A stretch of 64,000 nucleotides of DNA from assembly GCA_001695595.3 (NCBI GenBank), contig MBPM02000016.1, forward strand, positions 992,001 through 1,056,000, written 5' to 3'. Positions 4,385 through 50,198 of this stretch are shown one piece after another (the first letter of the stretch is position 1; the number at the start of each line of letters is the position of its first letter). The notes under the pieces are model-generated. The model saw only the letters and a list, made by a program, of their open reading frames with translations, made no database searches and was not told where the DNA came from. The stretch comes from Plasmopara viticola (lineage: Eukaryota > Oomycota > Peronosporomycetes > Peronosporales > Peronosporaceae). Both the position numbers and the translations under genes were made by a program.

Positions 4385-4819
4385 ATGTTGCCTCGGCCTC
4401 TGATTGTTTGGACACTCATTGGCTGGACTTTGTTTCAACAGGGGAATTGCACGCCTCAGGGCTACACTACCTTTGCCAGCTCTCGCCCAACGGATGCGAA
4501 CGTAGAGCTTGTCCCATGTAAGATACGTAGAGGATGCATCTTCTCCAGGAATAAACAATTTCATCGCGGCTAATTGCTCTGCAGTTCTTCCAACGGTTGT
4601 CTACGATAACCTGGACGGGGACAAAACAGCGACTCTAGTTACCCCGAGCTCAGGAGTGCTTGTGGCCCATGTGAATTACAGAACGGTAGTTGTGTCAGTT
4701 AATATGTTAAAAGTGACAAGTTGCTGAATTTATTTGATGCTCTTGTCAAAAATCGCAGGATCCACGGTACTATACGGAACATGCTTTGGAATCGAGGCTG
4801 AATTACCCGAGTACGATAC
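4385..4819 (+). CDS. Exons 1-3 of the giant receptor: signal peptide and N-terminus
   Basis: Exon 1 (4385-4517) starts at an ATG and encodes a basic-then-hydrophobic leader (MLPRPLIVWTLIGWTLF...GNC), a good secretory signal peptide. The donor is gtaaga at 4518 and the acceptor is tctgcag, ending at 4584. Exon 2 (4585-4685) begins in the matching phase, with donor gtagtt at 4686. Exon 3 (4759-4819) follows a cgcag acceptor and ends at gtaatc. The phases are 1, 0 and 1, and the join into the long frame at 4875 is in register. Exon 3 is also open in a second frame, which would require other splice sites for exons 2 or 4. RNA reads would settle this. Confidence 0.65.
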
Positions 4820-7800
4820 GTAATCCGCCACCCTGATAGCTAGACGAATATTTCATATGTGTATTTAATTGTAGTCTCTATAAGTCCGTATGCAAAAATT
4901 TCGTATACTTCAAAGCCTGTGTCGGCAACCATGTATAAAGCTGGACAAGGGGCCATTTTCCAGAAGGACTTTGATGCTGCGAGTGCACCTGTGGAGAGTG
5001 ACGGATTCTGTGAGCGTGAGCTGTCCACGCTTGGACCGCTGACAAATGCTCAAACTGACCTATGTGGCCGATTTAAACAGGTAGATACAAATGTTGGATT
5101 TCTATTACAAGTTGAATTTGTTGAGCCTAGTCCCACCACTACAAGCTGGTCCTGGTACCTCGGATTACCCTTTCGCATTGGTAATGGTGCCGTAGTTGTT
5201 CTTGATGGGGTTGTGATTCAAGACTTAATGGGTAAATCGGGGTATTGGAAAAGCGTGTTGTCGAAGGCAACACAAGTCGATATGAAAATCACCCCTGGTG
5301 TTCATTCATTAAAGGTCTATGGACTTTCAACAAAGTTCGAAACGTCAGCAGTGTACTTCAGCCGGGAGGGATCGACGCCAGCTATAGCTTCCGTTTCTGC
5401 TATCGTCGGAGAAGTAACTAAATGGTCTTCGTTTGCCCCTTCTGATCCTACGATATCATCATTACTTTCTGCTGAACTAGCAAATAAAGTGAGCAGCGTC
5501 GGAAGAGGTGTCTCAGTCTTGCAGTTTCAAAATGCTCCCATTGACGGAAGATTCGCGCTGCACCTGGGGACAGTTTGGGCAACAGACACTCAAAGCACCA
5601 CGTATAATTCATCGTCTCTTGTCTCTTTTTCGTTTTTACCCAGCGCCACGTGGATGAATGCAAAGGCGACTCAGACGGCCTTTCTGACATCAGTCACTTC
5701 ACAATGGAGTGCCATATCTGGATTGACTTTCTCTCTACCTTCTTCTCCTAACGGTGTTTTACTTTGCTCGTTTACAGGAAGATTTTTCGTGGACAAAAGC
5801 TCGGTGAAAGCTTTTCGCCTTGATCTCGGATTTGGCTCAAACTTGTCATCACCAGTTTCGAGTTTTCACCTAGATGAAACATTTATTGACCCATCTGGAG
5901 TGCCACTTGACTTTTCTTACTTTGCCAGCATCCCGACAAAAAGTGCACTGAATCTATCCGTCAGTTATCAATACCAAGGAACAAAAACAGGAAAGATTAT
6001 CGGTGGCAGAACTACGGCTGTATACTTTTTAGGGGCTTCGCTGACTACCGACAAAATAAGTGAAGTCACGGTGTCTATGACAGCTAGACTCTTTTCGAAA
6101 CAAGTTGTAATGACATCTCCGAGCACTCTCGTGATCCGTGTTGCGGGTATCATTTGCCGCAATTCAGCTACTGAGGCATTCCGTGCACGTATAATAAAAA
6201 ATGGGGATCCACTCTTTGATGGCGACTTTGTTTCTGTTACTGGGACTGTACCAAGTGGAGCCTGTGAGACTCTGACCATGCATTCTGTTGTTGACGCTGT
6301 TACTGGCTCGCACACAATCGCGATTGATGCAAAGACATCGACAAGTGCAGGCTTTCGCCTAAAAGAAACTCAGGTCCAAATTGTTGTAATCGAGAGAGGT
6401 GCCATGATTTCACAGGATTCATGCCAATCTCGCTGTAGTCGACACGGTCTTTGCCAATCAGGTGTATACAACACTGTGACAAGCACATGTAATCTGTTTA
6501 TGCTTCGCAACACGTCTTCCATGTCAACAGATGCAACGCGATTGACTTATGTGCGAGACCAAGAATTAGCTACTTCTAACTACTCATGGACAATTCTTCG
6601 CGATACTAAGTGGACTCTTAGCCAAAATTTTTCATTACAAGCTCCATGCAGAGGAAATTCATGTGATAATGCTGTATGCGCTAAGGCGTACTCGCTAATA
6701 GATCGCTGTCGGTGTACTTGTCAATATAGCAGCAACTGTGTCGGATTGACAATTACAGATGGAACGTGCTACGGAATTTCAGCAGCCGACCTTCGCCAGA
6801 ATGTACTGTCGGGCACTTACAATTTCCTAAGTGGAAGCACAATCCATCTTAACTTGCCTCAAAATTGCTACGCAATCAAGGCCAACGCACCAAATGCCCT
6901 GAGCGGGCGCTATGCAATCGCAACCAATACAGGAATTTATGATGCCTTTTGCAACATGACGGCTGATAGTGGTGAGGGCTATACAGTTATTCCATGCAAC
7001 ATGGGTACAAGCGATATCGAATGTCAAAGCAGTACGGGTCCAAAAGACAATGATAGCTGTAAGGCGATGGGTCTCCGGCAAGTTGTGCCGCGCTCATCAG
7101 GTCATTTTGTATCAATGCACCGAAAATTTGGGTCGCTCTATTTTTCTACGGTTCCTGGTGTAACAAATGCTTACGTGGGTGATTCTGTGAAATTACCAAG
7201 CGATGAAAATAATGTAATAGATTGGACGGCAATTGATGGTGGAAGATGGTGGCTACGTGATAATGAAAGCGTCTGTGATGTTGTGTCCCCGGCCGACGCA
7301 CCAGGCGAAAGAAGATGGTTGGGTATGCATTGGGCTTTAAATGGTCAAAATGTTCTCGATGGTGTAAGCTTAAGCTTTGATCCGCGTGGCATAGGAACAA
7401 CGAGATATTTGTGCTCAACAAACGATGTGAGCCCCTCCGTGTCGTGGACTTTTGCTTTTCAAGACTCGTTTATTGGAAGCGGCGACGACAACTTGTGGGT
7501 AACGTCGTGGGGCAACACAGATAAATGGTATTCGCTATGTCAAGGCATTGTCATTTTTGGTGGAAAGTCGTTTGCGCGAACAGGCTCTTCTGTAAGTCGC
7601 AAATTGCCCTTAATCGCCACAACCGATAAGCCTACAAGTGTGCGCGTTAAGTTTACGTACTATTTTGTGTTTGATCCTCTCTATTGGATCACTCTTTTTC
7701 TTAAATCTTCTGAGCCTAGAACTATTCGTGTTTACCTTGGCTCTCAGCTGATCCGACAAGTCCAAATCGACGCATCGGTGACGTACGCTTGTTACGGACA

Positions 7801-10800
7801 AAATTCAACATCACTTCGCCAAGCGTATTTTTATAGAGGAAGAGAAAGCTTTGTTGTAAGAGGTTTAATCGGAAATCTTACTCAGATTCGATTCGACGTT
7901 GATTTCGGATCATTGAGTATTGTTGCCTTCGGAATCGATGACGTATCCGTGGAGGTTGAATCAAGCTTTACAACGTCACTAGGATTGTCGATGGGTAATG
8001 CAGCAGTGTCATGCATGCATCTCAAAAATGAACGCCTCTTACGCGGAGATACTAATCCAGATGGCCAGTATTACATTCAATTCAATTCAGACGTCGATCC
8101 GATCAACATTCCTTGCTCCGATGGCTGGATTGTAGCACAGCGTCGAATGAATGGCAAAACAAATTTTAACCGCAATTGGAACGAATATCGCGACGGATTT
8201 GGCTTAGGTTCCTCTAGTGAGTGGTGGATTGGGAATAACATCCTAACGGCTATCACAGCCCGAGCCACCGAAGCAATGATTGTAATATCGAAAAATTACC
8301 AATCTTATTCTGCGTCTTATCGTGATTTTCGAGTCGCAAACGAGAGCAAAAAGTACCTTCTCACTGTGGGAGGATACAACTCTAAAGCAAGCTATGTCAC
8401 AGATGCTTTAAGTGCCCTTTCTAATGTGTACTTTAGCACGCCTGACCGCGATAATGACTTGTCTGCGAGTCAAAACTGCGCCAAGAGTAGCCGAAGTGGA
8501 TTTTGGTACGCAGACTGTCTTACCAATTCTTCAAGATCTGATTTAAATGCGCCGTTTGATATGCTTCCAATTTGCTCTTCTTACTCAGCGTGGGCACAAA
8601 GCTGGTGCGGAAAGAGCGGAGGTATTGTGTGGGACTCTATAGATGGGTACGATTCTTCTATGCTTTTGCTTCGACCAGATAGGTGTGACCCAGGCTATGT
8701 TTTATCTGTGAGCCAAGAGTGCACTCAGTGTCCTGCGGGTACATATTCTGAGCCACATTCACAGATTTGCAGTGCTTGTCCAGCCGGCTCTTACAGTCCT
8801 TCGGCTGGAGCGTCTGGACTTGCCGCGTGTATTAGATGCCTCCCGGGATTCAAATGCCCAAATAATTCAACAGCACCACTTAAGTGCCTAGCAGGCACAT
8901 TTTCTGATGCCGGATCAAGCGAATGCTACAATGCACCAGAGGGTTACGCAAGTCCCTTTGATCGAATGTCTCGCAATGACTTGCTTTCGTGCACGAATGG
9001 AAGTTACTCTAAACCAGGACAGCTAAGCTGCAGTCCAATACCGGCTGGATTTTACTGTCTGCAAAACGTTGTTACCTGTGGCTATACCTCGTTGAGTCCA
9101 TGCCCGTTTAAAAGCGTGTACTGCCCCGAAGGAAATGCTGGTCCAACTGTTGTCCCACCTGGATATTACTCCATTGGTTCAATGGTCAACGAGCAACAGT
9201 CTGCAATATTACCTTGTCCTAGAGGATACTATTGTCGGAGAGGCATCGCATATCAATGTCCGCCGACAAGATATGGCGATCAAGTTGGTCTTACAAGCCC
9301 TCTTTGTTCGGATCGATGCGCCATTGGGTGCGTTTGTAAAGCTGGCAGCATCAGCAGATGCCCCGATGCTCCAAGTAGTCGAGATCAAGTCGTGTTGTCC
9401 CCAGCGTCAATTTCGTGCACAATTGCACCATTGACAATGCAGCCCAGTGAGAGTGCTGAATCTTTTAACCAAAGCATTGCCTCTGCCATGAGCAGTGAAA
9501 CAGCAGTGGCTATCGACGTTTTCGAGTTCAAGGACGTTAATCAGACATTTTTCAAGACAGGGTGGTCTTTTGGATTTGCTCACAACATTACAATATCGTA
9601 CTTCGAGCGGTCTCAGACTGATCTGAAGTACGAGTTTCAAATGCCAATCGCTGGCTTTGATTGGGGTGCTGTTGTATTGCTGGATGGAAGTGTATTAGTT
9701 CCTCGATCGAAAAATGGCACTCTTGTATTTTCATACGTGTCGTCATGGGGTCAACATCGCATAACTATTGTTGCAGCCGAATCACGTTTTGTCACAAAAA
9801 GGTCAATTCTCTTCCGAAAATCAATTGATTCAAGCTTTAGCAGTCTGCGTTGTGATCGTTTGGACGGACAAGCGATATCATTACATATTGATATAGGTTT
9901 ATGCTCCGCTAAGACCGTGGATTGTACAAATGTGGCACGCATTAATGGAGAAGTGGCAAAAAATCTTGCTCAAGCCTCGAATTCTGTCGATATTTTAGTG
10001 TATTCTGGAAGGGGTCTTTTGAACTCAGTGCTTAGCAGTGATGTCTCTTCAATTGCCACTTACATGCCAGCACTATCTGGAGTGGATGTTGGAGGAATAA
10101 CAATCATTATTGGCACAAAAATTAAGGTGCTACCATTGTCTTTACTGACCTGGATCAGCGCATATGGTATATCACAAGCCGCGGTTGAGGCCGCATCCTC
10201 TGGCTTCGTCTTTGTAGCGGTCAATGATAAAACATCAACTGCCACTTTTGATGTTGCTATACCAGATATGAGCTATGCCTTACAATTGGTGCTGCCACTC
10301 TCCCAGGGCATAGCATACTACAATTTCACCAGTGCTCCACCAGGCTATTATTCTTATCCTGAAAATGCGTCTGATGGTCGACGAAATGAGCTGCGAAAAT
10401 GCCCATTGGGATACAGCTGTTCTAATGGTGTTCGCACACTTTCATTCGTCTTTCCTAATTCAGTTTGCGTGGACAAAAATCACACGCTAAACATTTACGA
10501 AAACGACGCCGACTACGTTTCTGGTGTAAGCTTTAGTCCCAATTATAATCCTGTTGGTCTGACGTTTCAACTGAATGCCCAAGTTTCCAATTTGTTTACA
10601 TTAGACAGTCAAAATCGTATCAAGCTTCTCAAAGCGTTGAATTACGAAGCACAAAATGCCTATGACATGACGTTGTTGCTACAAGAAGCACAAGCGAATG
10701 TGCCGTATGCAGCCTGTCAAATTCATGTTAATGTGATTGACGTTAATGAAGCTCCCAGCGTGATTTCTTATGACGCCTCTCGTATTGTAAAAGAAAATAC

Positions 10801-13800
10801 TTTGCCACCTGTTTCACTAATACCTGCTATTGGTGTGACTGATCCTGATTTTTTCGATTCTTACACATTAAGTATTGCCAGTGGTGGAACTGATAAATTT
10901 TCAATCAATCGAGATGGCTCTATCGTCGCAACCCAGTCACTAGATTTCGAATCGACGTCTCAATTCATACTGAACGTTGTTGCTAAAGACCTTGGCGGAT
11001 TAGAAAGCCACGCTAATGTTACCGTCGTAGTTCAAGATATTCCGGAACCACCGATTTGTGCTCCTTTCACATACACTGCTCCAGAAAATACATCAGTCGG
11101 GACAGTCATTGGTAATATCACTGACCATGCTTCGGACCCTGATGCGGGTGACACTATTTCGTACCAGTTGCTTTATCAAAGTGTACCAGACTCCTTGATT
11201 GTTAACTTGAATAATGGCACGATAATCTTACAAAAAGCTTTAAATTTTGAAGTACAGGACACGATCTTCTTCAAGGTACAAATTACAGATAAGACAGGTC
11301 TGCAGGCTAAGTGTGACTACACGATTGCTGTGACGGATTCCAATGATGCCCCAGTTTTGACAAGTGCTACTTTTCGAGTTTTAGAAAATTGTGTAGGAAA
11401 CGATTGTTTGGTCGGCAATCTTGCTAAATATACATTTGACGAAGACAAGGGTGCAGAATTTACGTTTGCATTAATTTCGAGCAGTGAATTGTTTTCTATT
11501 CATGGCTCTCAGCTATGGGCAGTCGGAAGTTTGGATTTTGAAAACACTTCTGTCTTTTCCATAATTGTTTCTGTTGAGGACGAAAAAAATGGTCATGGTG
11601 AAGCTGCAATGACAGTGCAAGTCGTCGATGTAAACGAGGCCCCGACTGGCTCAGTCTTTTCGGAGCGCGTTCAAGAAAACATTCCTGTCGGCACTGTTGT
11701 TTGCGCGCTTAAAGCCAAAGATCCAGAAGGAGATCGTCTATCGTATATGATCGTGAATGCTGGTCCTGGATTTGAAATTTTGTTCGAAGTTGCAGGCAGT
11801 AACTTGGTGACCATAGCCGCAATAGATTACGAAGCTTTGGCTGTCCATATGTTTCAGACTAACATAAGTGTTTGCGATCCCCTTCGATTATGCACTGAAA
11901 TCGGACCCAATCTGATCGAAATTTTAAACGGTCCAGATGCACCAACTTTTGAAAAAGCAGCCACGGCAATTTCTGTATTAGAAACAGCTACGATTGGATC
12001 TGTTGTTAATGCTAACTTTACATTTTCAGATGAGGATGCAAATCAAAGTGCACTGCTTGTATACGCAATCTACTCCGGCGACCCACAGCACCAGTTTTCA
12101 ATGTCAAAATCAACTGGAGAGCTGACAGTGATCTCCGCGCTGAATGCTGAAGTTGTAAACGATTATAGTCTTGTTGTGCAAGCTACAGATGTAGATGGGC
12201 TAACTGGTCTTTCGACTCCGATCGAAATTGCCGTGCAAATGGTGCCTTCACCTCCTTTTTTCGTTGGTACCTCGACGCAAACGTCCAATTACAACGTTGA
12301 TATAAGCCAGTTGAGTGATGGGTCGTATTCAACAGTCTCTTTGCCCATAGCCGATAGAGATCCGGGACAACTTGGTGGGATATGCTCAATTATGACACAA
12401 CAAGACAAGTTTTTAGTTAAAACAAGCAGTGATGGAACAGCTTGCGTTTTATCGGTCCTCCACAATGTCTACATTCCTGAAGTCATTGACAATGAGCGCA
12501 TCCGTGTCGTGGTGCGAGTGGCGGACACGTATAATGTTTCGTCTTATAGTGAAGTTACTATCAGTATACTTTCTCGCGACATAAATCACCCTCCCAAATG
12601 CACTAGCGCAGATTCTCAGCTCCTTGAGAACTCACCTTATGGTACTTTTGTTGGAGCAATATCTGGTAGTGATCCAGACGCTATTGACACAGTCTCCTAC
12701 TTTATTGACTCCGGCGACGATAGTGATACTTTTCACATCAACTCTTCTAGCGGCATTGTAACCGTAGGCACCACTTCACCTGATTTCGAGACTACCCGCC
12801 AATTTACGTTAACAATTCGCGTGCAAGACGACGCCGCGAGTCGTTTAACTGGTGTTTGTACCTTCATCGTTAAGATTTTGAATGAGCTCGAGTCTCCGTT
12901 ATGTGCTGTGGCAGTAGTCTTTACAATTGCTGAAAATGTCGCGATAAATGCTCATGTTGGAGTTTTTCTCTGGAAAAATTGCACTGATCCAGACACAGGT
13001 GTCGGCAATTCCACAGCCTTCCTCTTTGAGATTGTTGGAAACGTTCCAGCATTCACAGTCGACAATAATTCGGGTCAAGTAATGACGAGCCAAGTACTTG
13101 ATTATGAGCAACAAAAACTCTACAATTTGACGCTTGTAGTCCGCAATGTGTTTCGTCCAGCGAAAAGTACATTTCTTGGCCTCACTGTGGAGGTAATTGA
13201 CCAAAATGACCCTCCTCAATTATTCTTCCAACCTGCATTTCCAAGCTCTAAGCTTGGTTGTGTCGACGTCTTGGAAACGTCTGTGGTTGGTACATCGATT
13301 GGCACTGTAACTGTTTATGACGAAGATGCTTACGATGTTTGCACGGTCATATCACGACATTCCCTTTTTCTTCTTGAATTTATCAACTCTACAACGTATA
13401 ATATCCTTTTAACCAAGCCTGTTGATTACGAAACTCGTTCGCTCTTCTCACCTCAAGTAGTTGCAACAGATACAGCAAAAGCGTCCACGACGCTCACTGT
13501 AGACGTTCGAGTTATCGACGTCAATGAGGCTCCATACTTCGCCCCTGACCAGCACTTCTTCATTGAAGAAAACAGTGATACACACACAGTTTTGACATCA
13601 AGATTTCGATTGCGAGGTCCGTGCGGTATTGCCGATGAGGCCACCAAAATTGTAATTAAAGCTGCTGTGTCATATGGAAATTGCTTACAGCAATGTCTTC
13701 ATACTAATGATTGCGAAGCGGGTGTTTACAATTATACCTCCTCACAGTGTAATCTTTACAAAGTAGTACCCAAATTGTGTGTGCCATGCAATAATTGCGA

Positions 13801-34800: not shown

Positions 34801-37800
34801 CATTCGAATTAATATCCACTCCTGTTAGCCAAAGTTTTTCGATCGATTACGCATCTGGAGTAGTCAGCTTTTCTTCGGGTCAACAAAGTTACGCCGATTT
34901 CGAGGTTCAAAGCGTATACCATCTTCGGTATCAAGCAAGCGATGTTCCTGATTTCGGCCTGACCTTAGCTTGCAGCAACATTATTGAGATCAGTGTGGTA
35001 GATGTTAATGAAGCACCAATAATTTTAGGAAAGGCGTCTTTTGCTGTAGCGGAAATGAGTGCAATTGGAACAATGGTGGGAACTGTCGACGCAATTGATA
35101 GAGATGCAGGTGATGTACTAACGTTCAGGCTGCAAAATTCTTCCAACTCATCATTTACAATCGAAGCAGACACTGGGATTCTTCGGGTCGTTAATAATAC
35201 GATGATCAATTTTGAGTTAGCTTCAGCGATGGATGTTAGCGTCGTTGTCTCTGATCGTGAGGGACTTCAGGCTGTGGCAGCACTAGTTGTTACTGTGATT
35301 AATACAAATGATCCACCAATGCTTCAGACAATGAACTTCTCAGCGAACGAGTATGCATTAAGTCGGAGTGGTGACCCGTCTGGGTCTCGAAATCTAGAAT
35401 TACTGGGATCAATACATTGCTATGACGAGGATAGAAATGACGAGCTTTCGTTTGCACTAATGGATGATAATCCCGCTTTCGTGATCGAAGCGAAAAGTGG
35501 ATTTTTGTACGCGGAAACCAAATTTCTTGACTTTGAGACGACCCGCGCTTACAATCTTACTATTCAATGCTCGGATGGACAAGCATATGCTGTGTCAACG
35601 TATTGGATATTTGTAAGAAACTTAAACGAAGCGCCGAATGTTTCTAATCAAGAATATCGCATCAATGAAAACTCGCCAGAAGGTACTAGCATTGGCTTTA
35701 TCACTGTTTCTGATGCTGAGCATGACGACGAGAATTACTTATCGATTATCGATATGGCAATAGGTAGCGCTAACGTAGTGTCTCGATTACGTGACAAAGC
35801 TTCTGTCTATACTGACAATACAGACGTAAAATGGATAAATATTCCCGAATTGCTTGTCGAAGCTTTTGTCATTGCCACCCCAACGGCCATGCCATTATCA
35901 AATATTACATTAAATCTTGCAAGTCCGGGGTACACATTTGTGCTTCCTGAAGACGATTCCAATGCGACATTAAGTTGGATATCGCAAAACTTGTTCGTTA
36001 AATTGGAAGGACAAACCATCACTGCGCAAAGTAGCACTAGTGCAACTAGCTATGACATTTTTATTCGAGAACAAAGTGATGATTTTGTGGTGCCTGATAT
36101 GTTTGGGTTTGATACGCCGTGCTTTTTTGGCGCATATCCTTCTTCCTTCAGTTATTTTCTCTACGGACCTAGAAGTGACTGGATAAATGTCACAACGTCC
36201 GGAGAAATGTTGCTAACTACCAATACAATCGACTTTGAATCAAACACATCTGATGAACAGCCGCTTCAAATTAGTATTAATGTCGTGGACAGTGGAAAAT
36301 TAATGGGAGAGGCAATACTTTCTGTCTTTGTAGATGATATAAATGAGGCACCTGTCATCACTAGCTGCTGCTTCGAAATTACTGAGAACCCAGCTACTGG
36401 TACAATGATCGGTGAGCTTACAGCGAGTGACCCTGATGCAGCAGACAAGATTACTTTTGAACTGGCTTTCCCGTCTACGGACGTTTCATTAACCCCCAGC
36501 GGCAGCTTGTCCGTGCGCAACAGCTCATTGTTTGATTTTGAACGAAATTCTCAAGTGAAGCTTCGGGTACGTGCTACTGACCAAGGCGGTCTGTCTCATG
36601 AGCGTGAGATTCAAATTTCCGTACTTAATGTAAATGAGCCACCACTTTTCCAGTATCCATCCTATTTCTTCACCGTTCCTGAAAATTCTGCATCTGGTTT
36701 GAATTTTGGAACACCCATTCGTGCGATTGACCCAGACCAGGGACAGACAGAAATCTTACGCTACGAGCTAGTAAATAAATTTGCTGGAGAGCTACCATTT
36801 CGGCTTGAGAGTTGCTCAGGCCAACTTGCTGTCCAGGGGGATAAATTAGACTACGAAGGAACAAATGAATTTTCGTTTAGTGTGCGAGTTGTAGATTCTG
36901 GCTACCCCACACCTCTGGAATCACAAGCGCAGGTGGTAATAAACTTACTCAATGTCAACGAAGCACCACAATTTGCTGAGTCTGGGGCGCTGATTATTTC
37001 GGAAAATGCTCCGATTGGAACGTTATTCGGGCAAATTGTTGCCGCAGACCCAGACGAAGCATCAATATTGAAATTTCGCACTAATGCCAGTGACTTTGTT
37101 TCGATAACTGACAGTGGCCAGCTTTATGCTGCGGTATCATTCGACTTTGAATCCATGCCTTTCTTTTACGTCTCGGTCTTTGTGGAAGACAACGGTGTAA
37201 ATTGCGATTATGATCTAGACTCATCCAATTGCAAGCCCCTCTCGGTCTCTATGACTGTTGTCGTCTCAGTACGAGATGTCAACGAGCCCCCTTGTCTTAT
37301 CGCTGGTACATTTGTTATTCAAGAAAATCTCTTTCCGGGGTCGCTTATTGGACAGCCGATTCAGATTGAAGACGTCGACGGTACTGTAGGAAATGGCTCT
37401 GGTTTTACGATTACAAGCGGTCTCTCGAGTGGCAATGAAACGGAGTTTTTAATTCGTAATGATGGTCAATTAGTGACGCTCGTCTTTCTGGACTTTGAAC
37501 GAAAAAGTGTGTATGATTTAATTGTCGCATATTCTGACGGTGAATTTACGTCACATCTTAGTATAAATGTCACTGTGCTTGATGAGAATGAGTCTCCTTC
37601 GATTATAAAGGGTATAGTTGGATTTGTCCAAGAGAATATGGCTGCTGGTACTACAGTGTTGGTCGCGCAGTTTACTGATCCCGATTTATACCCATTAAAT
37701 ATATTTACGCTGGTCGATCGCTACGCACCATTTACAATCGATCCAGTCAGTGGCGCTGTTAAAACATCTCGTACATTGGACTATGAATCGGATCTTACCA

Positions 37801-40800
37801 CTTTTAATTTGGATTTAAGAGTCTGTGATGCTGGCCAGACCACTATCTGCGGGACCGGTTATGTCACCGTCAATGTTAATGATGTTCCTGAAGTCCCCTC
37901 GATGAACGATGTAATATGTACACAAATAGAAAACACGGCTACATTGTTTACCGAGCAAAGCACAACTGCGTGTACTTTTATTGCCAATGATCCTGATAAG
38001 GCTTCATGTTCTTTCTATGCCATCGTCGAGGCTCATTCCCAGTTTGAGCTGGTACGTGACACAATCGTTGACGGGGTCGCTAGTACAGAGGCTCTTGATC
38101 CAATGTTTTGCACGGACGATCGAGTTGGACTTGCTTGGAAAGCATCTCCTCTGCCAGATTACGAAACGTTATCGCAATATGTGGTCACTGTTCAAGTCTC
38201 AGATGAAACTATTGATAGAACTGGGCTGTCGATTAGTAGTCGAGTTGTCGTAAACATTGTAAACGCCAACGATTGTCCCACATTGACCAATCTATCTTTT
38301 ACAATACGCGAACGCCCAAACGCTGGTACGCAGATTGGATTTCCTCTACCTGGTAAAGATCAGGATGTGGCCGATACACTTAGGTATTCAATCCTGGGAA
38401 CAAATGCTACGTTCGATCTGATTGCGGTAGACGGATTAACAGGGCAATTAATGGTAGCAAGGACACCTATAGGCAGTGAATTAGTATTTCCTGCACAGTA
38501 CGACGTCACCATTTCTGTGACAGATAGTAGTGTCAGCCGCTGTTCGACCACTGCAGTCATTACAGTATCTACCACAAATTCTAATTTCGCACCGGTATGG
38601 CTTAACTCGCTACCAATTACGTTTGGTATCAACGAGAACTCGGTTGCGACCCAAACTAAATTTTTAATCGATAGCTTTGTACGAGATCCTGATAACGATG
38701 TCATCCAGTTTACGCTGCAATCCAAGACCGATACGTATTGTGCAGATACATTCAACCTTGGCTTGTTGAGTGGAGCCCTTGAACTTCGTGAAGGTAAAGT
38801 TTTGGATTTTGAGCAGAGACAAGCCTACGTTTGTACTATTGCGGTGTGTGATCCGGCTCAAATGTGTGCGTCACAGGACGTCGTTATTCAAGTTATAAAC
38901 ATCAACGAAGCACCAACATTTAGCGATCAGTTATATGCATTCACGGTGCAAGAAAATGAAGCTGAAAATTTTGCGCTCCCTCGGTGTCTTGGTGCTGTTG
39001 ACCCCGACGAAGGCGATGTTGATGCCCTTACTTATACGACGTCATGTATAAATACCACTGACTGTGCTTTCTTTTCACTTAACGTTGAAAGGGATAGCAG
39101 CCAGGCACGATGTGCCCGACTCATTGTGAAGTCGAGTTTGAACTATGAAGCTAGACGTCGCTATAGCTTTGATCTTATTGCAAAAGACTCTGGCAATCTG
39201 ACAGCTATCTCAAGTATTGCCATTGAAGTGGAAGACGTGAACGAAGTCCATGCCTTTGTAAATTTTCTTACCACAAAGTCAGTGCCGGAGAACGCAGCCA
39301 TAGGCTCAGTGGTTCTGCGAGTCAACACAACAGATCCAGATATATACTCAAATGCCTTTAGTACGATTCGGTATTCGCTGATAGCAGTGTCTCCACCTGG
39401 TCTAAACACATTTCAAATTGAACCAACAACCGGTGACTTATATGTCAGTGGCTTAATTGACTTTGAGGCCATTCAAGCGTACATAATGACTGTTGAAGCT
39501 CGAGATTCGAGTGGTACCGAGGCCCTAGTTATTACCGAGGACCTCACGATTACGGTCGAAAATGCTGAAGACACAACGATCAAGACAGTTGCGCTCGTAT
39601 CGAACAACTCTTATTCATTTAATACTCTAGGTGGAGATAAGTTCATCCTTACAGGCTCGGATATTGGCTTTAAGCAACGAGCTGATAATTCTGTGGTGAT
39701 AAAGCAACTCGTTGTGAGTTATGGGGAGTATGGAACCACCTTGCCTTACGTAGCGGTAAACTGCTTATTAGTTGACGGAAACAGTGGTGTTGAATGTACA
39801 TCAGCTCCAGGTGTTGGAGCGAATTTATACTGGAATCTTACTTTGGTCATGAGTGTTCCGCATATTGGTGACACGACATATCAGGCCTCGTCCTCAGTCC
39901 CATTGGCATCGTATAGTCCACCCTTTATTGAATCGGTTGCGTGCAACGATGCATTCCCTACAAACGGCAGCAACAAACACAATATTTTTGTGTATGGTAA
40001 AAACTTCGGATCAACTCAGTTGAACAGCTCTGATACACCACCTGTTGTTTTGTATGGCTCTGATTTACAAGCACACAACTGTACACTGTTTGTCTCTGGT
40101 GATACGTTGTCTACTCGTCAATACGTAGCTTGTCGTAGTGTTATCGGTTCCGGCCAGAACCTTTCATTTACAATTATTGTTCGTGGTCAGGCGAGCGCGA
40201 CGTTCATTACCAATTGCCATTATGCTGCTCCTACCATCTCTGCAGTCACAAAGGTAGACGGAATGCGCACAACAGGCAACGACATTGTACTGATAAACGG
40301 AAGTGGATTCGGATGTCAAGGCTGTGCTAATATAACTGTACAATACACGAACGCCATTCACTCGTTCACAATGATCGACTGCAAGGTTACGGTGGAACAT
40401 GTTCAGCTGCAATGCTTGTCTTTACCTGGAGCAGGAAATAATTTTCGCTGGCAAGTATCTGTTAACGACCAACTAAGTGGACTGACGAGTGACCTTTCTA
40501 CCACCTACAACATACCTGAAATCTGGGAAGTCATGGGTTTTAAGGACGCTTCGACGGCAGGTGGAGCAATCTTTCACATTCGAGGTCTGAACTTTGGTCC
40601 TGATGAGGCCACATTTGTGGATCCAGTTGTTGAATATTCATTCGATAATGCAACTTTTCTTCGAGCTGTCAATTGCAAGCGAAAATATACTGATCCTCAA
40701 AATCATAACTTGATTCAGTGCGTGTCAGTTGCTGGTAGCGGGTCATTCCACTCATGGCGTGTATCTATAGAGGAGCAGACTTCACTATGGACAACGCAAA

Positions 40801-43800
40801 ACACGTCGTACGCTGGGCCAATCGTAAATAAGGTTTTCCGTCCGGATGGCGAAGTAGAACTTAGGACGAGTGGTGCCCAGCAAATTGTCATTACAGGCAA
40901 AAATTTTGGCACTTTTAATGAGTCTAGGATCAATCAAGTGACTTATGGTGTTAATGGGGATGAATTTACCGCAAGCGACTGCTCGATTGTAATTGATCAC
41001 GAACGCATCCTGTGCCTAACTGCATCTGGTGTGGGTATACGGCTTACGTGGATCGTCACGATTGATGGTTTAACAAGTTTGACGCCTACGATAAGCTATG
41101 CCAGGCCATTTATCACTTCACTTGATGGGAATGGAGCGGTTAATGGCCTCGTTCGTGGTGGACAGATTGTCGTAATATATGGTGGTAATTTTGGACCTAG
41201 TAATGTGACGATTGACACGATTTCTTATGGAACATCCGGACGAGACTACCTCGTGACGAATGTGATTGAGCACAATGACTCTACAATCGTTTGTACAACT
41301 GTACCTGGTGTCGGTGCGAGCCTTTCTTGGATCGTATCAGTCGGAGATCAAGAGTCGAGTTTGTCGACCGTGACCAGCTCATATGCCTCTCCTATAATTA
41401 CGTCCTTTTATCCATTGGTAGCCTTAACAGACGGATCAACTCAAGTCACCATTATTGGGGAAAATTTGAGTGCAAATGTGACTTTTGCGGCATCTCGAGT
41501 GATGTTCTCGCCACCCCAAGCGAGTTTAGCTCTGTATCGCATTCCAATCATTGCTTTTGGAGACTTTGGTGAGAGTAATACTAGTGAATACGTTGTCGTT
41601 CGGGTTCCAGCTGGGTACGGATATAAAGCTTCGTTGCAGCTGCTGGTCGGTACGTCGAGTGTTCAAAGTAGCTCTGTTTTGACGATAAGCTATGGTTCCC
41701 CATTGATTGACTCGGTGTACACTGATGAAGGCCCAAGCGATTGTCTGCCTTCGTGCATTCAGCTCACAATTACAGGTACAAATTTCTACTCCACTGGCCG
41801 TGTAATTGTGTCCAAGTATCCTATCACAATAACAAGTCTTGAGGTTGCGACTTATGAGTCCTCCGTCGAGTTCTCAATGTGGTCTCACGATACCATTATT
41901 GTGCCAAGATTTGTCGGAAGAGTGGGATATGTAACGCTTATAATTGGGAAAGAGAAAATTATAAGCAATTCGGCTCCATTCAATTGGAATGATCCATCTA
42001 TTCTCGACTGGTATACATACAGCTCGTCCTGCAGTGTGCTTGATTGTTCGACTTGCTATCGCTTAGATGGAAACACAAAGCTTTTCCAAACAGAGCCAAT
42101 TGGAAGCGCTGGATATCTGAAATATTTATCGTCGACTATGGGTGGGGCTACTCTAAGCATTTTCGCCAGGTACATAGGTCGGAATCCTCAGGTGTATGTC
42201 GGAAATAATATCTGCTCCAATGTCGTAGTGACCACTCCCGTCATACCGCTAAGCATTGTTTTATCAAGAGAAGTTACAGAAGTGAGTAGTATACGTTTGT
42301 TATCATGCACTGTTCCAAGCGGTCAAGGAGGTATGCTTGCTCTGAATATTATGCGCGGTACAACACCAAGCAGTCCACGCTTTTTTAGTTACATTTTACC
42401 TAGTGTGGATTGGGTTGAAAGTTATGCTACTAGCTCTTCCACTGCAGGAAAGTCTGTGACTCTGACCGGATCGAACTTTGGTACAAAACCAATAGTGACC
42501 ATGATCTCCACTTCAGATGTGTTTTTCATTCTATTAAACATAACAGCATTTGACCATTCTCATGCTGTAGTGACTCTTCCCCCCGGAGAAGGTCAAAATT
42601 ACACACTAAGTTTAGTTGCTGGTAATCAAGAAACTTCGACTGAGTTCCATTACGATCCTCCTATTATCAATAGTATCGAAGTAGACGACGCGACGACGGT
42701 CGGTGGATCTACGATGACTATTCGTGGCAGAAATTTTGGAGCAAGTTCACTCTCGAATGCGCACACCGTCTCGCTGGGTATTTCGTTTTCATGCATCATT
42801 GACAGTATCGACCATGAATTAATCCTTTGCACGACAAGTGAAGGCCAGGGGGGTGAGTTTGACGTCATTGTGACGGTGAGTGGCCAAACGAACGCCGATA
42901 GAACAACAAAATTCAGCTACGACTCCCCTGTTATCTACAACATCAGTGGGAGCGACGGTCCTACTTCAGGGTACACATGCAGCTGTACAGATCCAGACCA
43001 GCCGTGTGCTACGCTGGACACACCATATAAATGTCGCTATCTCGAAGCAAGTTCAACAAGTATATCTTCGCTTGACGTCTATTGTGTTCAAAGCACTTTA
43101 AACGGATCTTTACAAAACGTTACTGTCACTGCGGTGGAGGATGTGTATTCAAGCAACAGACCCGTGTATATGAGCGATGAAGAGGCAGATTTGGAGCTCC
43201 TGTTCACTAAAGGGTTTTGGTACCTACTTCAAAACAATACAGAGCTATATCGTGCTGGTGCTATTACAGCAAACCCGCCCTCAACAGGTTGGCTCGACGT
43301 GAGTGTAAATCCACCGGTTGGTCTCGCTACAATGGAAGTAAATTCAGGTTTTTGCACAAAGACTTCTTCACATGCATGTCCAGCAGGTACAGAATTGTGT
43401 ACACGTGTAGCTATCACGCTAGCGGGCAAAAATTTCGGTGTGCGGTCACTTGATTGGCAACTTGAGCTGATTCGCAACGATGATGTTTCAACTGACTCGG
43501 TGATAGTCACAAATGATGACATTGTATACTTTAGCCACTCAAATATTAAATTCTATCTGCCTCCTGGACAAGGCATTTCACGCCTTATCAACTTGACTAT
43601 TTCCGAGCAGCAGCTTGCCAATAAGCTGATTGAGTTTGGATACCAGACCCCAGAATTGATTGGATATGAAACTAGCACAAGTAATCTGTCGACTTGCGGT
43701 GGTTATACCATTACTCTTTACGGAAAAAACTTTGGGTCGACCCGAGCAAAAGTACTATTTGGTGGTCGAGACGCGCGTATTGATGGACAAAGTTCACATC

Positions 43801-46631
43801 CACGAGCATGTGGTCCCGACGCATGTGAATTCTCGACAAGCGGTCCTTGTATAGACCTTGAAACGTTCGTTTGTTCTCCATCCTTGTATGTCGTCAGGCC
43901 GACATTTAGCTTTCTTAATACATGTGATGGCACAAAAGGAACACAAATGCTATGTGAAGCTGTCAATCCCGCACCAGACCTGTCTGAGAACTTAGCTAGT
44001 CACTCTGACTTTGTGATCTCAACAATGGTTCCAGCTGGATATGGGGCCGATCTTAAGATCTATGTGATTGTTGACGATCAAGCTAGCAACGCGTTGACCT
44101 TCTCATACAACCAGCCATTGGTGGTGGCTCAGATGCCCAATCAACCCGATGCAAATGGAGCCAATGCTATTACGATAAAGGGCGCCGACTTTGGTTGTTT
44201 CCCGAACGATGCAATCACTATTTCATTTGTCGCGACCGACGCGGTGCAGCCAATATCGCGAATGTTGGGTGTGCTTGAAAATAGTTTAGAGTTGGCGACC
44301 ATACGTGATCATGAGGTTCATCGACTGCTGACTGATACAGCGACACCAGCGAGCTCAAATAATTCTAGTGAAAATCAATCCGGTACTGTTGTGTGGACGA
44401 GTTCTTCGGAATTAATTTGGTACCCCCCTAAGACGAAAGCTGGTACCACAAGAATTACTCTGTCGGTGGGTGGGAACGAAATGTCTTCTTCAAGTCAAAC
44501 CCAATTGAAATTTCAATGTGGCTCTGGGTATTACCGAAGCCAGTCTGAGTTTTGTGATGTATGCCCGGAAGGAGCGACGTGTGCTGGTGGTGATGAATTG
44601 CCGATGGCCAAGTCTGGTTACTGGCGTGAAGGTGAAATAGTTCTTGCATGTGACCCCAAATTTGCTTGTTTAGGGGCCAACAAGTGTGCCAACGGGTACA
44701 CAGACGTTCGATGTGGAGTGTGTGTATCGAACTACCACAAGCTTAATTCCGAGTGCAATTTGTGTCCTGAGAATCATTGGGGATCCGTCACCATTGTGGT
44801 AATTTGCATTGGTGTGGCAATCATCGTTAGTTATATGCTAACTCGAAAAGGTGTGAGTCTTGGTTTACTATCCATTGGCATCGACTATTTCCAGACTCTA
44901 TCCATTTTCGGAAACGCTCAAATTTCGTGGCCAGCGACACTAATTAACTTGTTTGCAACACTCTCTGCCTTCAATTTAAATTTAGAGCTAGTGGCACCAG
45001 AATGTTTTTCAATCCAAGTCTCGTATGTGACTAAATGGTTTGTAATTGAGCTTTTTCCAATATTTGTGGGGGCAACTTCTCTTGGAATTTTTGCCGCACT
45101 TTATGCATACAAGCGCTTTATCAAAAAACGTCGCACAAGATTAACGTCCCACTTGCCCCAATTGTTTGGCTCTACGCTTGTGATGATGTATTACTTATTT
45201 CTGTACCTTACTCGAACAACTTTGGATGTATTTAATTGCGTTGAGGCCATACCGTCCAATGGGAACTTGTACATGGTGGCCATCTACGCGCAGTGCTTCA
45301 AACGAGGCGGGATTCATATGCAGCTCTTTCCGTTCGCACTGTTGTCGTTTGTGATGTATTCGCTGGGTTATCCCCTCTTTGTGCTACTAACCTTGTCGCA
45401 AAATCGTGCGTTAGTGATGGAAGATCAACTTTTAAGAGCAATGCAGCGCGGGACGACTCGACGAACGAACCCCAATTGCTGGGACTTTCGCAAAAAGTTT
45501 TCCAAGCTTTACTATCAATTCAAGCCTGACTACTGGTTCTGGATGGTTCTTATTATCTTTCGAAAGTTCTTGTTGGCGGGTATCGGGCTTCTTTTCCGTC
45601 AAGATCCAGTATTTCAACTGGCTACGGCGACGTTTGTATTGTTTGTTAATTATGCGTTGCAAGTGCGTTGTCGCCCTTACATGAGCGCATATGAAACTCA
45701 GAAAGTGCTAGCAGACTATGCGAAGCGTGTGCTGCTTGAAACCCGTCGTGCAAAAGCCAAAGGGGAAGCCTTTGTTCAGCCAGCACATCTTCGTCTGGAA
45801 ATGCACGCCTCCACAATCACGGCCTGGAAAAGCGGTCATCGAGATCACGGCATCACTGGAAGTTCGGCTCCACCAATGTCAGGTTGGCGGGGTGCAAATG
45901 AAGCAATTCTTGCTTCACAAGAGCCTCAAAATTTGGTTGGATATCTTTGGGATCACAATACTGTGGAAGCATGTCTACTTTTCAGTGCTTCCCTCGTACT
46001 ATTGGCGGGCGTCATGTTTGAAAGTGGCCGCTTTGAAAGCGGTGAAACTAGTACGTCCTCCCAAATGTTGGCAATGGCGACCACACTTCTTGTACTTGGT
46101 AGTTGCGTGTACTTTGTCCTAGTTTTGATCACAGAGCTTGTTGTTGCACTTCGTCCGGACTACTACAAACGAATTACTCGCGTGCAAAAGCTTTTCAGTA
46201 CTCTACGCCGCAACCCTAAAGATAGCGCTGAGCACCAACATGGAAAGCATCGCCAAGCAATTGAAGATGATAATAGCGATGGCGATGACAATGATGAACT
46301 TGAAATGGTAGCGACTATGACGCAAAATCCACTGCACTTTAAACATGCATTAGCCGGACCCCGTGGATGTGCAACGCAAATGTTAGAGCATGATGAACTT
46401 ACTACGTTGTCAAAACTTCAAAATCATGAAAGCGGTCAGAGAACAAATATGCTACAACGTTCGTGTGATGAAAAATCTTCTTTAAAAAAAGAGCCAACTT
46501 CGCACAGGAGAAGATCTCAACGTCACCGAAGCACTTCTTTGACTAGAGAAGAAGCACGTGCCATAAGCGAAGAAGAGCTGACCTCGGCAATTGAGCAGAC
46601 TGATGACGTTCGAAGTAAAACAGACAATTAA
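4385..46631 (+). CDS. Giant multi-cadherin, IPT and multi-pass membrane receptor, 11 exons, about 13,851 residues
   Basis: Exons in my model: 4385-4517, 4585-4685, 4759-4819, 4875-14272, 14341-14438, 14511-15025, 15085-23172, 23232-23726, 23816-27208, 27273-27833 and 27919-46631. All introns are GT-AG, 55-89 bases long, and every junction keeps frame. Domains run in this order: signal peptide (1-22); PA14-like and beta-sandwich modules; PAN; fibrinogen-like (about 1141-1325); Cys-rich GCC2/GCC3 (about 1369-1610); cadherin block 1; PAN, laminin G, F5/8-C; cadherin block 2 with an inserted WSC; laminin G; F5/8-C; cadherin block 3; a beta-sandwich; cadherin block 4; IPT/TIG (about 11505-13145); Cys-rich; about nine membrane spans (about 13239-13692); cytoplasmic tail. 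Counting D-x-N-E-(A/P)-P-like linkers gives roughly 75 cadherin repeats. Cadherin repeats bind Ca2+ and adhere, so an adhesion or sensing receptor at the cell surface is the natural inference; ligand and function are unknown. No stop or frameshift occurs outside the introns. Exons 2-3 are the least certain. Confidence 0.88.
4875..14272 (+). CDS. Exon 4 of the giant receptor: PA14/PAN/fibrinogen-like/Cys-rich region and cadherin block 1
   Basis: This is a 9.4-kb exon (residues about 99-3231). In order it holds a PA14-like beta-sandwich with 'NGAVVVLDG' (about residue 202); further beta-sandwich sequence; a PAN/apple-like Cys motif (about 608-644); a fibrinogen-like start 'SGRYAI...FCNM' (about 758-811); a MAM- or jelly-roll-like stretch; a full fibrinogen-related domain (about 1141-1325); a Cys-rich GCC2/GCC3 segment; and about ten cadherin-like repeats (about 1958-2995) marked by VIDVNEAP linkers and LDFE/LDYE strands. 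A second PAN-like domain (about 3013-3065) and the start of a laminin-G fold close it. It ends at a strong gtaagt donor, phase 0, immediately after 'FSIDE', mid-domain. Confidence 0.88.
7990..8560 (+). other. Fibrinogen-related domain (FReD) in the giant receptor
   Basis: The translation carries family hallmarks: 'DGWIVAQRRMNG', 'FNRNWNEYRDGFG', 'EWWIGN', then 'YFSTPDRDND' with a nearby Cys and 'SGFWYADC'. The FST-x-DRDND motif is the Ca2+ loop of fibrinogen C-terminal domains. These domains bind glycans and acetylated ligands in animals. The last strands look degenerate. Confidence 0.85.
8684..9400 (+). other. Cys-rich GCC2/GCC3 (ephrin-receptor-like) segment of the giant receptor
   Basis: Repeated C-P-x-G-x-Y/F-S units ('CPAGTYSEP', 'CPAGSYSPS', 'CLAGTFSDAG', 'CPRGYYCRRG') with regular Cys spacing. 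Such segments are common in large protist surface proteins and often precede multi-pass membrane domains. Here the segment sits near the N-terminus, with a second one next to the membrane domain at about 44517-44780. Confidence 0.75.
14341..14438 (+). CDS. Exon 5 of the giant receptor: completes the laminin-G domain
   Basis: This 98-base exon lies between a ctgtag acceptor and a gtaaaa donor. It starts in phase 0 and leaves two bases, which pair with the first base of exon 6. It reads 'LRLWNTVR' and ends 'LLAFYR', joining 'FSIDE' to 'FNGDFTD'. This is exactly the 'IDE-LRLWN...YRFN' end of a laminin-G/concanavalin-like fold, which confirms the splice model although the exon is too short to show as a gene. 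Confidence 0.85.
14511..15025 (+). CDS. Exon 6 of the giant receptor: F5/8 type C-like domain
   Basis: Residues about 3264-3435. After the laminin-G tail it encodes a discoidin-like module with the hallmark 'NAIDGDPSTVSYIG' and 'LWVEVVF', typical of F5/8-C galactose- or lipid-binding folds. It ends at the strong donor gtaagt (phase 1). The acceptor is a weak gttgcgaag at 15084, chosen because only it keeps frame with the next exon ('APAQFIQADDD'). Confidence 0.78.
15085..23172 (+). CDS. Exon 7 of the giant receptor: cadherin block 2 with nested domains
   Basis: An 8.1-kb exon (residues about 3436-6131), phase 1 on both sides. It carries about twenty cadherin-like repeats with linkers such as VLDVNEPP and IVDVNEPP. 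Extra domains interrupt the array: a WSC domain at about 15834-16095, a beta-rich insertion at about 16735-17095, and a PA14-like insertion at about 19930-20400. After the last repeat there is a laminin-G domain (about 22320-22850, 'DGDWHYIAI', 'LRIYVDGRL') and a short Cys-rich linker. The donor gtaagt follows 'CCSE'. Confidence 0.88.
15834..16095 (+). other. WSC domain nested in a cadherin repeat
   Basis: The translation begins 'GCFSQIRNG' and continues with Cys at WSC spacing: 'DCYNRCASY', 'YKCWCANV', 'ACNFVCNDA', 'RCGGADQYAVYQ'. WSC domains are putative carbohydrate-binding modules of fungal and oomycete wall-associated proteins. The module sits between 'SPTGQLRV' and 'LDFEATNRY', which are consecutive strands of one cadherin repeat. 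Confidence 0.82.
23232..23726 (+). CDS. Exon 8 of the giant receptor: F5/8 type C domain on one symmetric exon
   Basis: Residues about 6132-6296, phase 1 on both sides. It encodes one discoidin-like domain: 'ASSFLYNNVHHGYG' at the start, 'SESWCPQ'-type loop ('NVNESWCPQTN'), 'EWVQISFPTPT', 'VSRVELFSG' and the closing 'MRLELYG'. The acceptor is tgtatag at 23231 and the donor is gtaggg at 23727. The frame before the exon is closed by a stop at 23217-23219, so the intron is required. Confidence 0.85.
23816..27208 (+). CDS. Exon 9 of the giant receptor: cadherin block 3
   Basis: Residues about 6297-7427, phase 1 on both sides. It has about eleven cadherin-like repeats with linkers such as VLDVNEPP, LLDVNEPP and ILDINEAP, regular LDFE/LDYE strands and 'TGEL/TGQL' turns. 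The acceptor cgaatag at 23815 and donor gtgtgt at 27209 are chosen by frame. A further frame-open ATG at 23761 is intronic in this model. Confidence 0.87.
27273..27833 (+). CDS. Exon 10 of the giant receptor: single beta-sandwich domain on one symmetric exon
   Basis: Residues about 7428-7614, phase 1 on both sides, between a ctacag acceptor and a gtaagt donor. It contains no cadherin linker. 'LTLAQLRFNVPSG', 'WSPSITSLLVDIM' and 'GAAVAAVFEVTV' suggest a DNRLRE-like or related carbohydrate-binding beta-sandwich. I cannot name the family with certainty. Confidence 0.8.
27919..46631 (+). CDS. Exon 11 of the giant receptor: cadherin block 4, IPT repeats, membrane domain and tail
   Basis: An 18.7-kb uninterrupted exon (residues about 7615-13851). 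About 35 cadherin-like repeats run to nt about 39580, including a non-cadherin insertion at about 35755-36160. They are followed by about 13 IPT/TIG repeats, a Cys-rich segment, about nine hydrophobic spans and a roughly 150-residue tail rich in acidic and then basic residues, ending at TAA. Two acceptors in the same frame are possible at the 5' end (exon start 27919 or 27928), differing by three codons. Confidence 0.9.
39590..44516 (+). other. IPT/TIG repeat array of the giant receptor
   Basis: About 13 units have the IPT/TIG pattern 'P-x-I...GG-x-x-I-x-I-x-G-x-N-F-G' followed by '...I-x-C-x-x-x-x-G-x-G'. Examples are 'AIFHIRGLNFGPDE', 'QIVITGKNFGTF', 'QIVVIYGGNFGPS', 'TMTIRGRNFGAS' and 'TITLYGKNFGST'. 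IPT folds occur in plexins, fibrocystin and many protist surface proteins, and here they link the cadherin array to the membrane. Confidence 0.85.
44517..46180 (+). other. Juxtamembrane Cys-rich segment and multi-pass membrane domain
   Basis: Cys-rich 'CDVCPEGATC' and 'RCGVCVSNYH' lead into about nine hydrophobic spans, starting with 'IVVICIGVAIIVSYML' and ending with 'LLVLGSCVYFVLVLI'. The stretch 'WFWMVLIIFRKFLLAG' with 'LQVRCRPYMS' matches the (W)-x-R-(R/K)-x-x-L...RPY pattern of C-terminal domains, often labelled TRP-like, in protist GCC2/GCC3 proteins. Channel activity is not demonstrated by the sequence. Confidence 0.75.
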
Positions 46632-48757: not shown

Positions 48758-49522
48758 TTAACTCCTGTGAGCGCTGAATATTTTGTCTTCGCATCCCAAG
48801 CGCGCGCAAGCTTGTTGCAGTTTTTTTTTCGAAGCGTGAGCCTCTGAGTAGAGAACATTTTTTATAGATTTGTAACGAGTCGGATCATGGCAACTAAGCG
48901 TCTTAGCCTTTTTCATTTGAAACTGTTGCCAATCAAACCAATCTTCCGTTGCTTTTGTCCATTGAAAATGCGCTGAGGGTACTGACCTTGGATATAAAGC
49001 GATATTTTCGCCAAGATCCAATGACGCCGCCATGATTGTCAATCTGGTAATTGTCGTGCCTTTTAATTTGAGTTTATGGTCTTGCAATAATCTTATCGCT
49101 TGTTGCTTTTTCCTTGGTTTTGCCGAAAAGAACCTTGGCTTCACATTAAAGACAACCGACGTGCCTTCACACCTCTCGCATTTCCAAATCGGCGGGATAC
49201 TCTTTTCGTGTTTTTGAGAAGCTTGCTGCCGTCTTTGAATGACAAACGCAGGATGCTGCTTTAGCGGTGGCGTAAAGCAGTAGAGATGACAGCAAAACAA
49301 ACACGTCGAACATCGTACCATGAGCTTCCCATTAAGATCACTTTTGCAGCGGTTACAACATTTCGAATATATTCCGTGTGTCGGATCACCATTTAAATTT
49401 GCAGGAAATTTATCCTGGCACTTAGCCGAACATGGGTTGTTGATTCCTAGGCCTAGATCATTTGCTGCTACTGCCGGACCCTTAAGGCGTAAGCTTTTTA
49501 CCAAGACGCTATTCTTTTCCAT
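48758..49522 (-). CDS. PHD-finger protein
   Basis: A 254-codon frame from the first ATG ('MEKNSVLVKS'). It contains a complete C4HC3 PHD finger: C56-x2-C59-x11-C71-x2-C74-x4-H79-x2-C82-x32-C115-x2-C118, with the conserved Trp two residues before the penultimate Cys. PHD fingers read histone tails, so a nuclear chromatin role is likely. The C-terminal region is basic, with 'WFDWQQFQMKKAK', and has no other recognised domain. The frame ends 66 bases before the first ATG of the IQ/TPR ORF on the same strand, and an A9 run lies shortly before its stop. The ORF could therefore be the first part of a longer PHD-IQ-TPR gene split by an indel or an unrecognised intron. Non-ATG codons keep the frame open 60 bases further upstream. 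Confidence 0.7.
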   Translation of the reverse strand: MEKNSVLVKSLRLKGPAVAANDLGLGINNPCSAKCQDKFPANLNGDPTHGIYSKCCNRCKSDLNGKLMVRCSTCLFCCHLYCFTPPLKQHPAFVIQRRQQASQKHEKSIPPIWKCERCEGTSVVFNVKPRFFSAKPRKKQQAIRLLQDHKLKLKGTTITRLTIMAASLDLGENIALYPRSVPSAHFQWTKATEDWFDWQQFQMKKAKTLSCHDPTRYKSIKNVLYSEAHASKKKLQQACARLGCEDKIFSAHRS

Positions 49523-49999
49523 TTCGACTTGTAATGTGAATCGATCATTTAAAACTACCGGTAAATATGGTGTCCGCAGCAACAGAAACAGAGATTATTT
49601 ACCCATTTTTATCTTGATCTGCTATGCGACGGGTTGTAGTTTAAATCTGTCTTTGGAGTCACCACCTTGAGTTTAGTGTTAAAAAAATCTCATTTGCATC
49701 TTAATAATTGGTCAGATGTTTCACATCCGCACGAGATTATTGTCCGATGTGTTTGAAGGCTGACCATATATTAGCGCGTAGACTATACTTGTGAGGGGGG
49801 CAACCATAAGCAATAAACACCACCTGCGTCTCCTAGGCACGCAAATGCGTAGTGGGGCTCTGATTACTACCACCGATGAATGACGTGTATTGTGCCCATG
49901 GCCGAGAGCTGAAATGTACTAACGGTATGATCGCAACAGCAGAAATATGAGATGCTCAGAAATTATCGGCAACGGGTCAAACGATGGTGACCGAAAGGC
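49523..49999. other. Intergenic region between the PHD ORF and the copia element
   Basis: No gene is seen. It should hold the promoter of the minus-strand PHD ORF. AT-rich runs (about 49680-49700) and a G run (about 49793-49800) are the only marked features. Confidence 0.5.
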
Positions 50000-50004: not shown

Positions 50005-50150
50005 TGTTAACATTACACCGCTGAATGCATGTTGAACAGGTGGATGGCTTTACAGTAATTACAAGTACGTCACAATTAGTAATTACATATGGTAGCCATT
50101 CATTGGTCAGGATAAATATATTCACTTCGGTTTTTACTTTCTTCTTAACA
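50005..50150 (+). repeat. 5' LTR of the intact copia element
   Basis: 146 bases, TG...CA termini with a 6-base inverted end (TGTTAA/TTAACA). I see no difference from the 3' LTR. An AT-rich box GATAAATATATTC at about 50111-50123 could serve as TATA element for the element's transcript. Confidence 0.95.
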
Positions 50151-50162: not shown

Positions 50163-50198
50163 CAAACAACAGCCTCGCATCACCACACCGTCACCGCC

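Follow-up and report, generated by a model that had tools for sequence, protein, structure and literature searches.

The main question raised by positions 4385-46631 of the window, by which we mean the whole stretch of Plasmopara viticola DNA analysed here (64 kb, GC content 43.5%), is whether one gene runs through all of it and, if so, what kind of protein it would encode. The first-pass annotation had joined seven long frames and a few short ones at phase-matched GT-AG introns into 13,852 codons, and this holds in detail. Ten introns, all GT-AG, of 55-89 bases and compatible in phase, connect seven exons of at least 165 codons and four short ones into 41,556 coding bases with zero internal stops; the codon count includes the stop, so the protein has 13,851 residues. 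A frame this long would be found by chance with a probability of about 10^-347, at 0.056 stops per codon (the rate in the flanking non-coding DNA). The gene and its exons, with the basis of each assignment in brackets, are:

4385-46631, plus strand: whole gene, 11 exons, 13,851 residues (splice model with one terminal stop; Phytophthora models over all junctions)
4385-4517, plus strand: exon 1, ATG at 4385, hydrophobic N-terminus resembling a signal peptide by eye (splice model; P. capsici model aligned from residue 1)
4585-4685, plus strand: exon 2 (splice model; alignment of relative)
4759-4819, plus strand: exon 3 (splice model; 3-residue length difference from relative beside exon end)
4875-14272, plus strand: exon 4 (long open frame; splice model)
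14341-14438, plus strand: exon 5 (splice model; relatives across junctions)
14511-15025, plus strand: exon 6, weak discoidin-like stretch (PF00754, E 0.084, below cut-off; relatives across junctions)
15085-23172, plus strand: exon 7 (long open frame; splice model)
23232-23726, plus strand: exon 8, a discoidin (F5/8 type C) domain in one exon (PF00754, E 7.4e-10; relatives)
23816-27208, plus strand: exon 9 (splice model)
27273-27833, plus strand: exon 10, a 187-residue stretch between two cadherin blocks (relatives at both ends)
27919-46631, plus strand: exon 11 (long open frame; splice model)

Alternative acceptors existed for intron 3 and in the region of 14.3-15.1 kb, where the choice was made by domain read-through. 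Near 14.3 kb it was made in favour of the present junction because the sequence after intron 4 reads as the last part of a laminin-G-like domain: the first laminin-G-like match ends at model position 138 of 151 and exon 5 continues, by eye, like the remainder. The relatives later agreed with these domain-guided choices, at this domain as elsewhere. Nine of the ten junctions are gapless at the junction in at least one Phytophthora model. The P. capsici model P0065 aligns from residue 1 and spans introns 1-3, differing in length by 3 residues next to intron 3. Among the eight models compared over introns 4-10, P. nicotianae P0062 spans introns 4-6, the first two of which P0065 spans as well; P. 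pseudosyringae P0005 spans introns 7 and 8, and introns 9 and 10 are each fully spanned by P0004, P0005, P0008 and P0009. Another frame, P0063, runs into introns 3 and 4 and, since it reads intron sequence, looks like an unspliced frame. The exon 10 stretch has no Pfam match at E<=1; both of its ends can be aligned to four Phytophthora models.

Could the region nevertheless hold several adjacent genes, with breaks near 14.3, 15.1, 23.2, 23.8 or 27.2 kb? Ten introns cut it, all orthologs found are partial models, and the P. capsici model stops at residue 3332 inside a 1.9 Mb contig. However, every junction is crossed by relatives, the laminin-G-like match halts before the end of its model exactly where exon 4 ends, and where an ortholog piece ends varies from species to species. 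P. capsici P0065 corresponds to residues 1-3332, P. nicotianae P0062 to 1994-5748, P. pseudosyringae P0005 to residue 5987 onward and P. idaei P0009 to 6349-13851 (70% identity), while a further piece starts at 6983; at most residues 5749-5986, within the single open exon 7, are left uncovered between these orthologs. Of the 57 anchor-domain relatives, 18 entered this coverage comparison. Since the pieces end at differing places and jointly span all junctions, the breaks appear to reflect where annotations or contigs stop. A check for separate orthologs, suggested at the outset, has to be read with caution: annotated orthologs do come in pieces, but with differing ends and with all junctions crossed. 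We regard several genes as very improbable. That Phytophthora proteins run over every junction argues, at the level of sequence, that 4385-46631 is one gene, as had been claimed, and it is readable here from end to end, whereas the models of its relatives that we found are all partial.

Two frames lie on the minus strand beyond the gene. A 664-residue frame at 46697-48691 converges on it, and 65 bases separate the two stop codons; the frame has no Pfam match at E<=0.01 and appears IQ- and TPR-like by eye only. In the frame at 48758-49582 a PHD finger scores below its cut-off (E 0.0017). Further on, about 3.4 kb downstream of the cadherin gene, there is a Copia retroelement (50005-54464) with one open frame (50199-54305). 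Its two 146-base end repeats are identical and the same 5 bases lie on either side, so the insertion is probably recent.

The laminin-G, discoidin, fibrinogen-like, WSC and IPT modules of a surface cadherin, which the first-pass annotation had recognised by reading, were recovered by domain scans. In addition to the discoidin exon listed above, the chain ahead of the membrane part contains:

6407-6517, plus strand: PAN-like domain (PF00024, E 1.2e-4)
8060-8530, plus strand: fibrinogen C-terminal-like domain (PF00147, E 6.6e-36)
10532-13513, plus strand: cadherin block 1, residues 1985-2978 (own cadherin profile)
13886-14272, plus strand: laminin-G-like domain, to the end of exon 4 (PF13385, E 7.9e-10)
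15099-22211, plus strand: cadherin block 2, residues 3441-5811 (own cadherin profile)
15831-16067, plus strand: WSC domain within block 2 (PF01822, just below cut-off in one scan and above it in another)
22437-22820, plus strand: second laminin-G-like domain, in exon 7 (PF13385, E 2.6e-5, 24.8 bits, cut-off 27.6)
23836-27114, plus strand: cadherin block 3, residues 6304-7396 (own cadherin profile)
27945-39524, plus strand: cadherin block 4, residues 7624-11483 (own cadherin profile; collinear in relatives)
39603-44363, plus strand: IPT/TIG stalk of at least 11 repeats, residues 11510-13096 (PF01833; own profile)

The blocks number four if the exon 10 stretch is counted as a break and three if it is not. 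The early estimate of about 75 cadherin repeats was close: a profile built by iteration from the protein's own sequence finds 76 at 10 bits or more, and the Pfam cadherin model (PF00028) finds 43 at E<=0.001. With loosened patterns for the calcium motifs, D.D is present in 61 of the 76 repeats, an LDRE-like motif in 65 and the linker motif in 58; all three occur in 45 repeats, and 31 repeats lack at least one. The maxima over 200 shuffles were 37, 7 and 6, respectively, and 1 for all three together (mean 0.0). The LDRE-like and DxND-like motifs by which true cadherins are recognised are both present. All 167 N-glycosylation sequons lie ahead of the membrane part. In the genome search, the 43 PF00028 matches at E<=0.001 all fall within this gene (52/52 first-look candidates were scored), and the Pfam cadherin model reveals no second cadherin locus in the whole assembly (92,937,831 bases, 358 contigs), where the nine-pass membrane domain described below also occurs only once.

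The repeat array appears to be fixed in number. In 11/11 models compared, each repeat that falls within the aligned span has its one-to-one counterpart, at identities from 71% down to 36% (P0009 45/45, P0005 46/46, P0004 39/39, P0006 35/35, P0010 26/26, P0011 35/35, P0012 34/34, P0013 34/34, P0014 35/35, P0062 28/28 and P0065 9/9). These are 11 of the 14 Phytophthora or Phytophthora-like models, with P0007, P0008 and P0063 left out; P0006 and P0011-P0014 are termed Phytophthora-like by make-up alone. P0004 and P0062 are the close P. nicotianae relatives of the gene. Gaps of at least 40 residues total four across the 11 models: P0005 is short of 125 residues in one place and 121 in another, perhaps through annotation error, perhaps as real variation, and P0012 and P0013 have 45 and 54 extra residues. 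Within the protein, repeats compared with each other show a median identity of 25% and a maximum of 47%. Among the 45 remoter proteins with the anchor domain (P0015-P0059), counts range from 0 to 44 repeats and 39 proteins have 2-10, although the profile behind the counts in all 56 relatives (P0004-P0059) was trained on this protein and may undercount, and some of the frames are open-ended. A constant repeat number would be expected if filament length or tension mattered. In our search of open-licence papers, a fixed repeat number in nonagonal cadherins, the family discussed below, was not found in print.

What holds this array at the cell surface? The multi-pass membrane end proposed earlier is seen in two structure models (mean pLDDT 70.8 and 82.7; pTM 0.81 for the second) as nine long hydrophobic helices and one short helix, in line with hydropathy over 34 aligned rows (33 anchor relatives and the window fragment, also used in the profile work), which gives ten peaks, one of them weak. 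The C-terminal region comprises:

44514-44765, plus strand: cysteine-rich neck ahead of the membrane (cysteines invariant across 34 aligned rows; PF24633 below cut-off)
44775-46151, plus strand: nine-pass membrane domain (hydropathy over 34 rows; two structure models)
45486-45689, plus strand: stretch matching PF06011 (TRP-like) below cut-off (E 7.2e-4, 23.6 bits, cut-off 28.5, in the genome search)
46152-46628, plus strand: tail after the last helix, on the putative cytosolic side (splice model; structure model)

No Pfam match for a catenin-binding tail was found in the C-terminal fragment. Cadherin repeats together with laminin-G domains are also found in CELSR, and the public record of P0005 bears the name 'cadherin, EGF LAG seven-pass G-type receptor, partial', so an adhesion GPCR with seven passes, as in Flamingo/CELSR, has to be considered. 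The helices, however, are nine rather than seven, and 7TM families are absent from the Pfam scans; we find such a receptor extremely improbable.

Extracellular cadherin repeats and nine long hydrophobic helices are instead the features of nonagonal cadherins, and both are found in this gene. These proteins owe their name to the nine membrane passes and were reportedly named by Fletcher, van West and Gachon in 2016 in Gene 593:64-75. The chimera, initially left unplaced, has a home: the combination of cadherin repeats with a nine-pass membrane domain defines a named stramenopile family (PMC7409359, PMC8164589), which includes an oomycete-specific tri-modular subfamily with the P. parasitica member PPTG_11709 (PMC7409359). 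Judged by its predicted module make-up, the gene is a further member of this family.

The closest resemblance of the anchor to a channel family is remote. PF06011 matches 4 of 14 family members (13 relatives and the window fragment) at E<=0.1, the best at 9.3e-5, also below cut-off; apart from it, that scan lists a single membrane family, CNNM, with one member matched. In precomputed annotation PF06011 is assigned to 2 of the 57 anchor-domain relatives found. The window fragment scanned alone shows no PF06011 at E<=1 or at E<=0.1, and no Pfam family reaches its cut-off over the membrane domain. Elsewhere in the same genome (G000) six PF06011 stretches exceed the cut-off (loci L010-L015), and profile-profile comparison of the anchor with these six proteins in hhalign gave scores of 44.6-52.4 and probabilities of 62-82% over 177-244 columns. 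MFS, ABC, PKD-channel and amino-acid-transporter controls reached at most 21.2 and 0.5% (five of six loci for MFS, where L017 has stops in frame, and five of six for unpadded PKD, where L031 is too short), reversed profiles at most 18.9, and 30 block shuffles at most 25.8 and 1.8%. An HMM built from the six PF06011 proteins did not separate single anchor sequences from the controls, and in a PDB fold comparison of the anchor models no fold stood out, even for the confident second model. The anchor may be a distant relative of PF06011 (Pkd2/FLC), as the profile-profile comparison supports and the single-sequence and fold tests do not. A TRP-like anchor of nonagonal cadherins was not found in print among open-licence papers.

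Conservation bears on whether the anchor does more than hold the chain. Protein identity in 500-residue steps is about 48-81% against four Phytophthora models (leaving aside a 7-residue end step of 43%). It peaks in step 13001-13500, which covers the neck and first membrane helices and where P. idaei shows 81% vs 62-76% in other steps. If the protein were a passive extracellular or cell-wall spacer, with the nine helices a mere anchor that gives no signal, one helix would do, the neck and first helices need not be the most conserved part in P. idaei, and many anchor residues would hardly have stayed unchanged among relatives that are about 30% identical. The chain does consist mostly of structural repeats and its anchor lacks a clear PDB fold match, but on balance we think a passive spacer somewhat unlikely.

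We consider it probable that the locus encodes, as a single gene, a giant cadherin of the nonagonal type: a calcium-stiffened filament of fixed length on the plasma membrane, with adhesive modules at its tip and an anchor that relays contact. The protein would sit in the plasma membrane with its repeats outside. Calcium would stiffen the repeats and, at about 4.5 nm per cadherin repeat, the filament would extend to roughly 0.3-0.4 micrometre at full stretch. Towards the tip lie modules of sugar- or protein-binding kinds, which would hold a neighbouring cell, the cyst coat or a host surface, and the anchor would pass the contact on to the cell. We suggest the wall-less zoospore or cyst as the site of action because a P. 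parasitica relative has a low-level zoospore transcript, as reported for PPTG_11709 (PMC7409359). The authors of that report, who call the mechanism of zoospore adhesion and aggregation largely unknown, used a human FAT4 antibody and favoured fibronectin-like proteins over cadherins in aggregation, while giving cadherins other adhesive functions (PMC7409359). A role in contact with the host during infection, and not in the spore, would suit the lectin-like kinds of module. The anchor domain, however, also occurs in Cafeteria roenbergensis, a free-living flagellate, which makes host contact unlikely as the original role, and we give this alternative a low probability.

A bolder form of the proposed giant cadherin would make nonagonal cadherins tethered force-gated calcium channels, in which the filament catches on a surface and pulls via the IPT stalk on a nine-helix TRP-like pore akin to Pkd2/FLC. 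The profile match and the fixed repeat ladder point this way, and force gating would explain the absence of repeat-number drift; we offer it tentatively, as a rather unlikely possibility. Fission yeast Pkd2 is a PF06011 member. Its membrane domain comprises nine helices, and under membrane tension the protein becomes active and admits calcium (PMC11277609); it has been grouped with Flc1-3 as a mechanosensitive family (PMC12028594). A fixed array on an anchor that is possibly kin to mechanosensitive channels turns 'adhesion' into a testable idea, with length and tension as the signal.

How does the gene compare with systems already described? Oomycete cadherins were reported in 2010, and those of Pythium ultimum and Phytophthora likewise have repeats with calcium motifs, including a run of three repeats common to Pythium and Phytophthora (PMC2926784). 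Pythium genes have 2-17 full repeats each, in contrast to 76 here, and P. ultimum has four cadherin genes as compared to one locus here; accurate Phytophthora cadherin models were lacking there (PMC2926784). Fat, Dachsous, CELSR and cadherin-23 of animals likewise have long cadherin arrays, in some with laminin-G, and the named animal matches among the best 120 of 236 matches show about 23-30% identity. These animal cadherins have one or seven membrane passes and up to about 34 repeats, and are not known to carry an IPT stalk. In the animal tip link, the channel and the cadherin filament pulling on it are separate. PF06011 channels are not known to carry a cadherin array. Fungal Pkd2/FLC, the TRP-like channels of that family, likewise have a nine-helix membrane domain (PMC11277609), the similarity being remote and below the Pfam cut-off. 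If nonagonal cadherins were force-gated channels, they would combine in a single chain what the animal tip link keeps apart.
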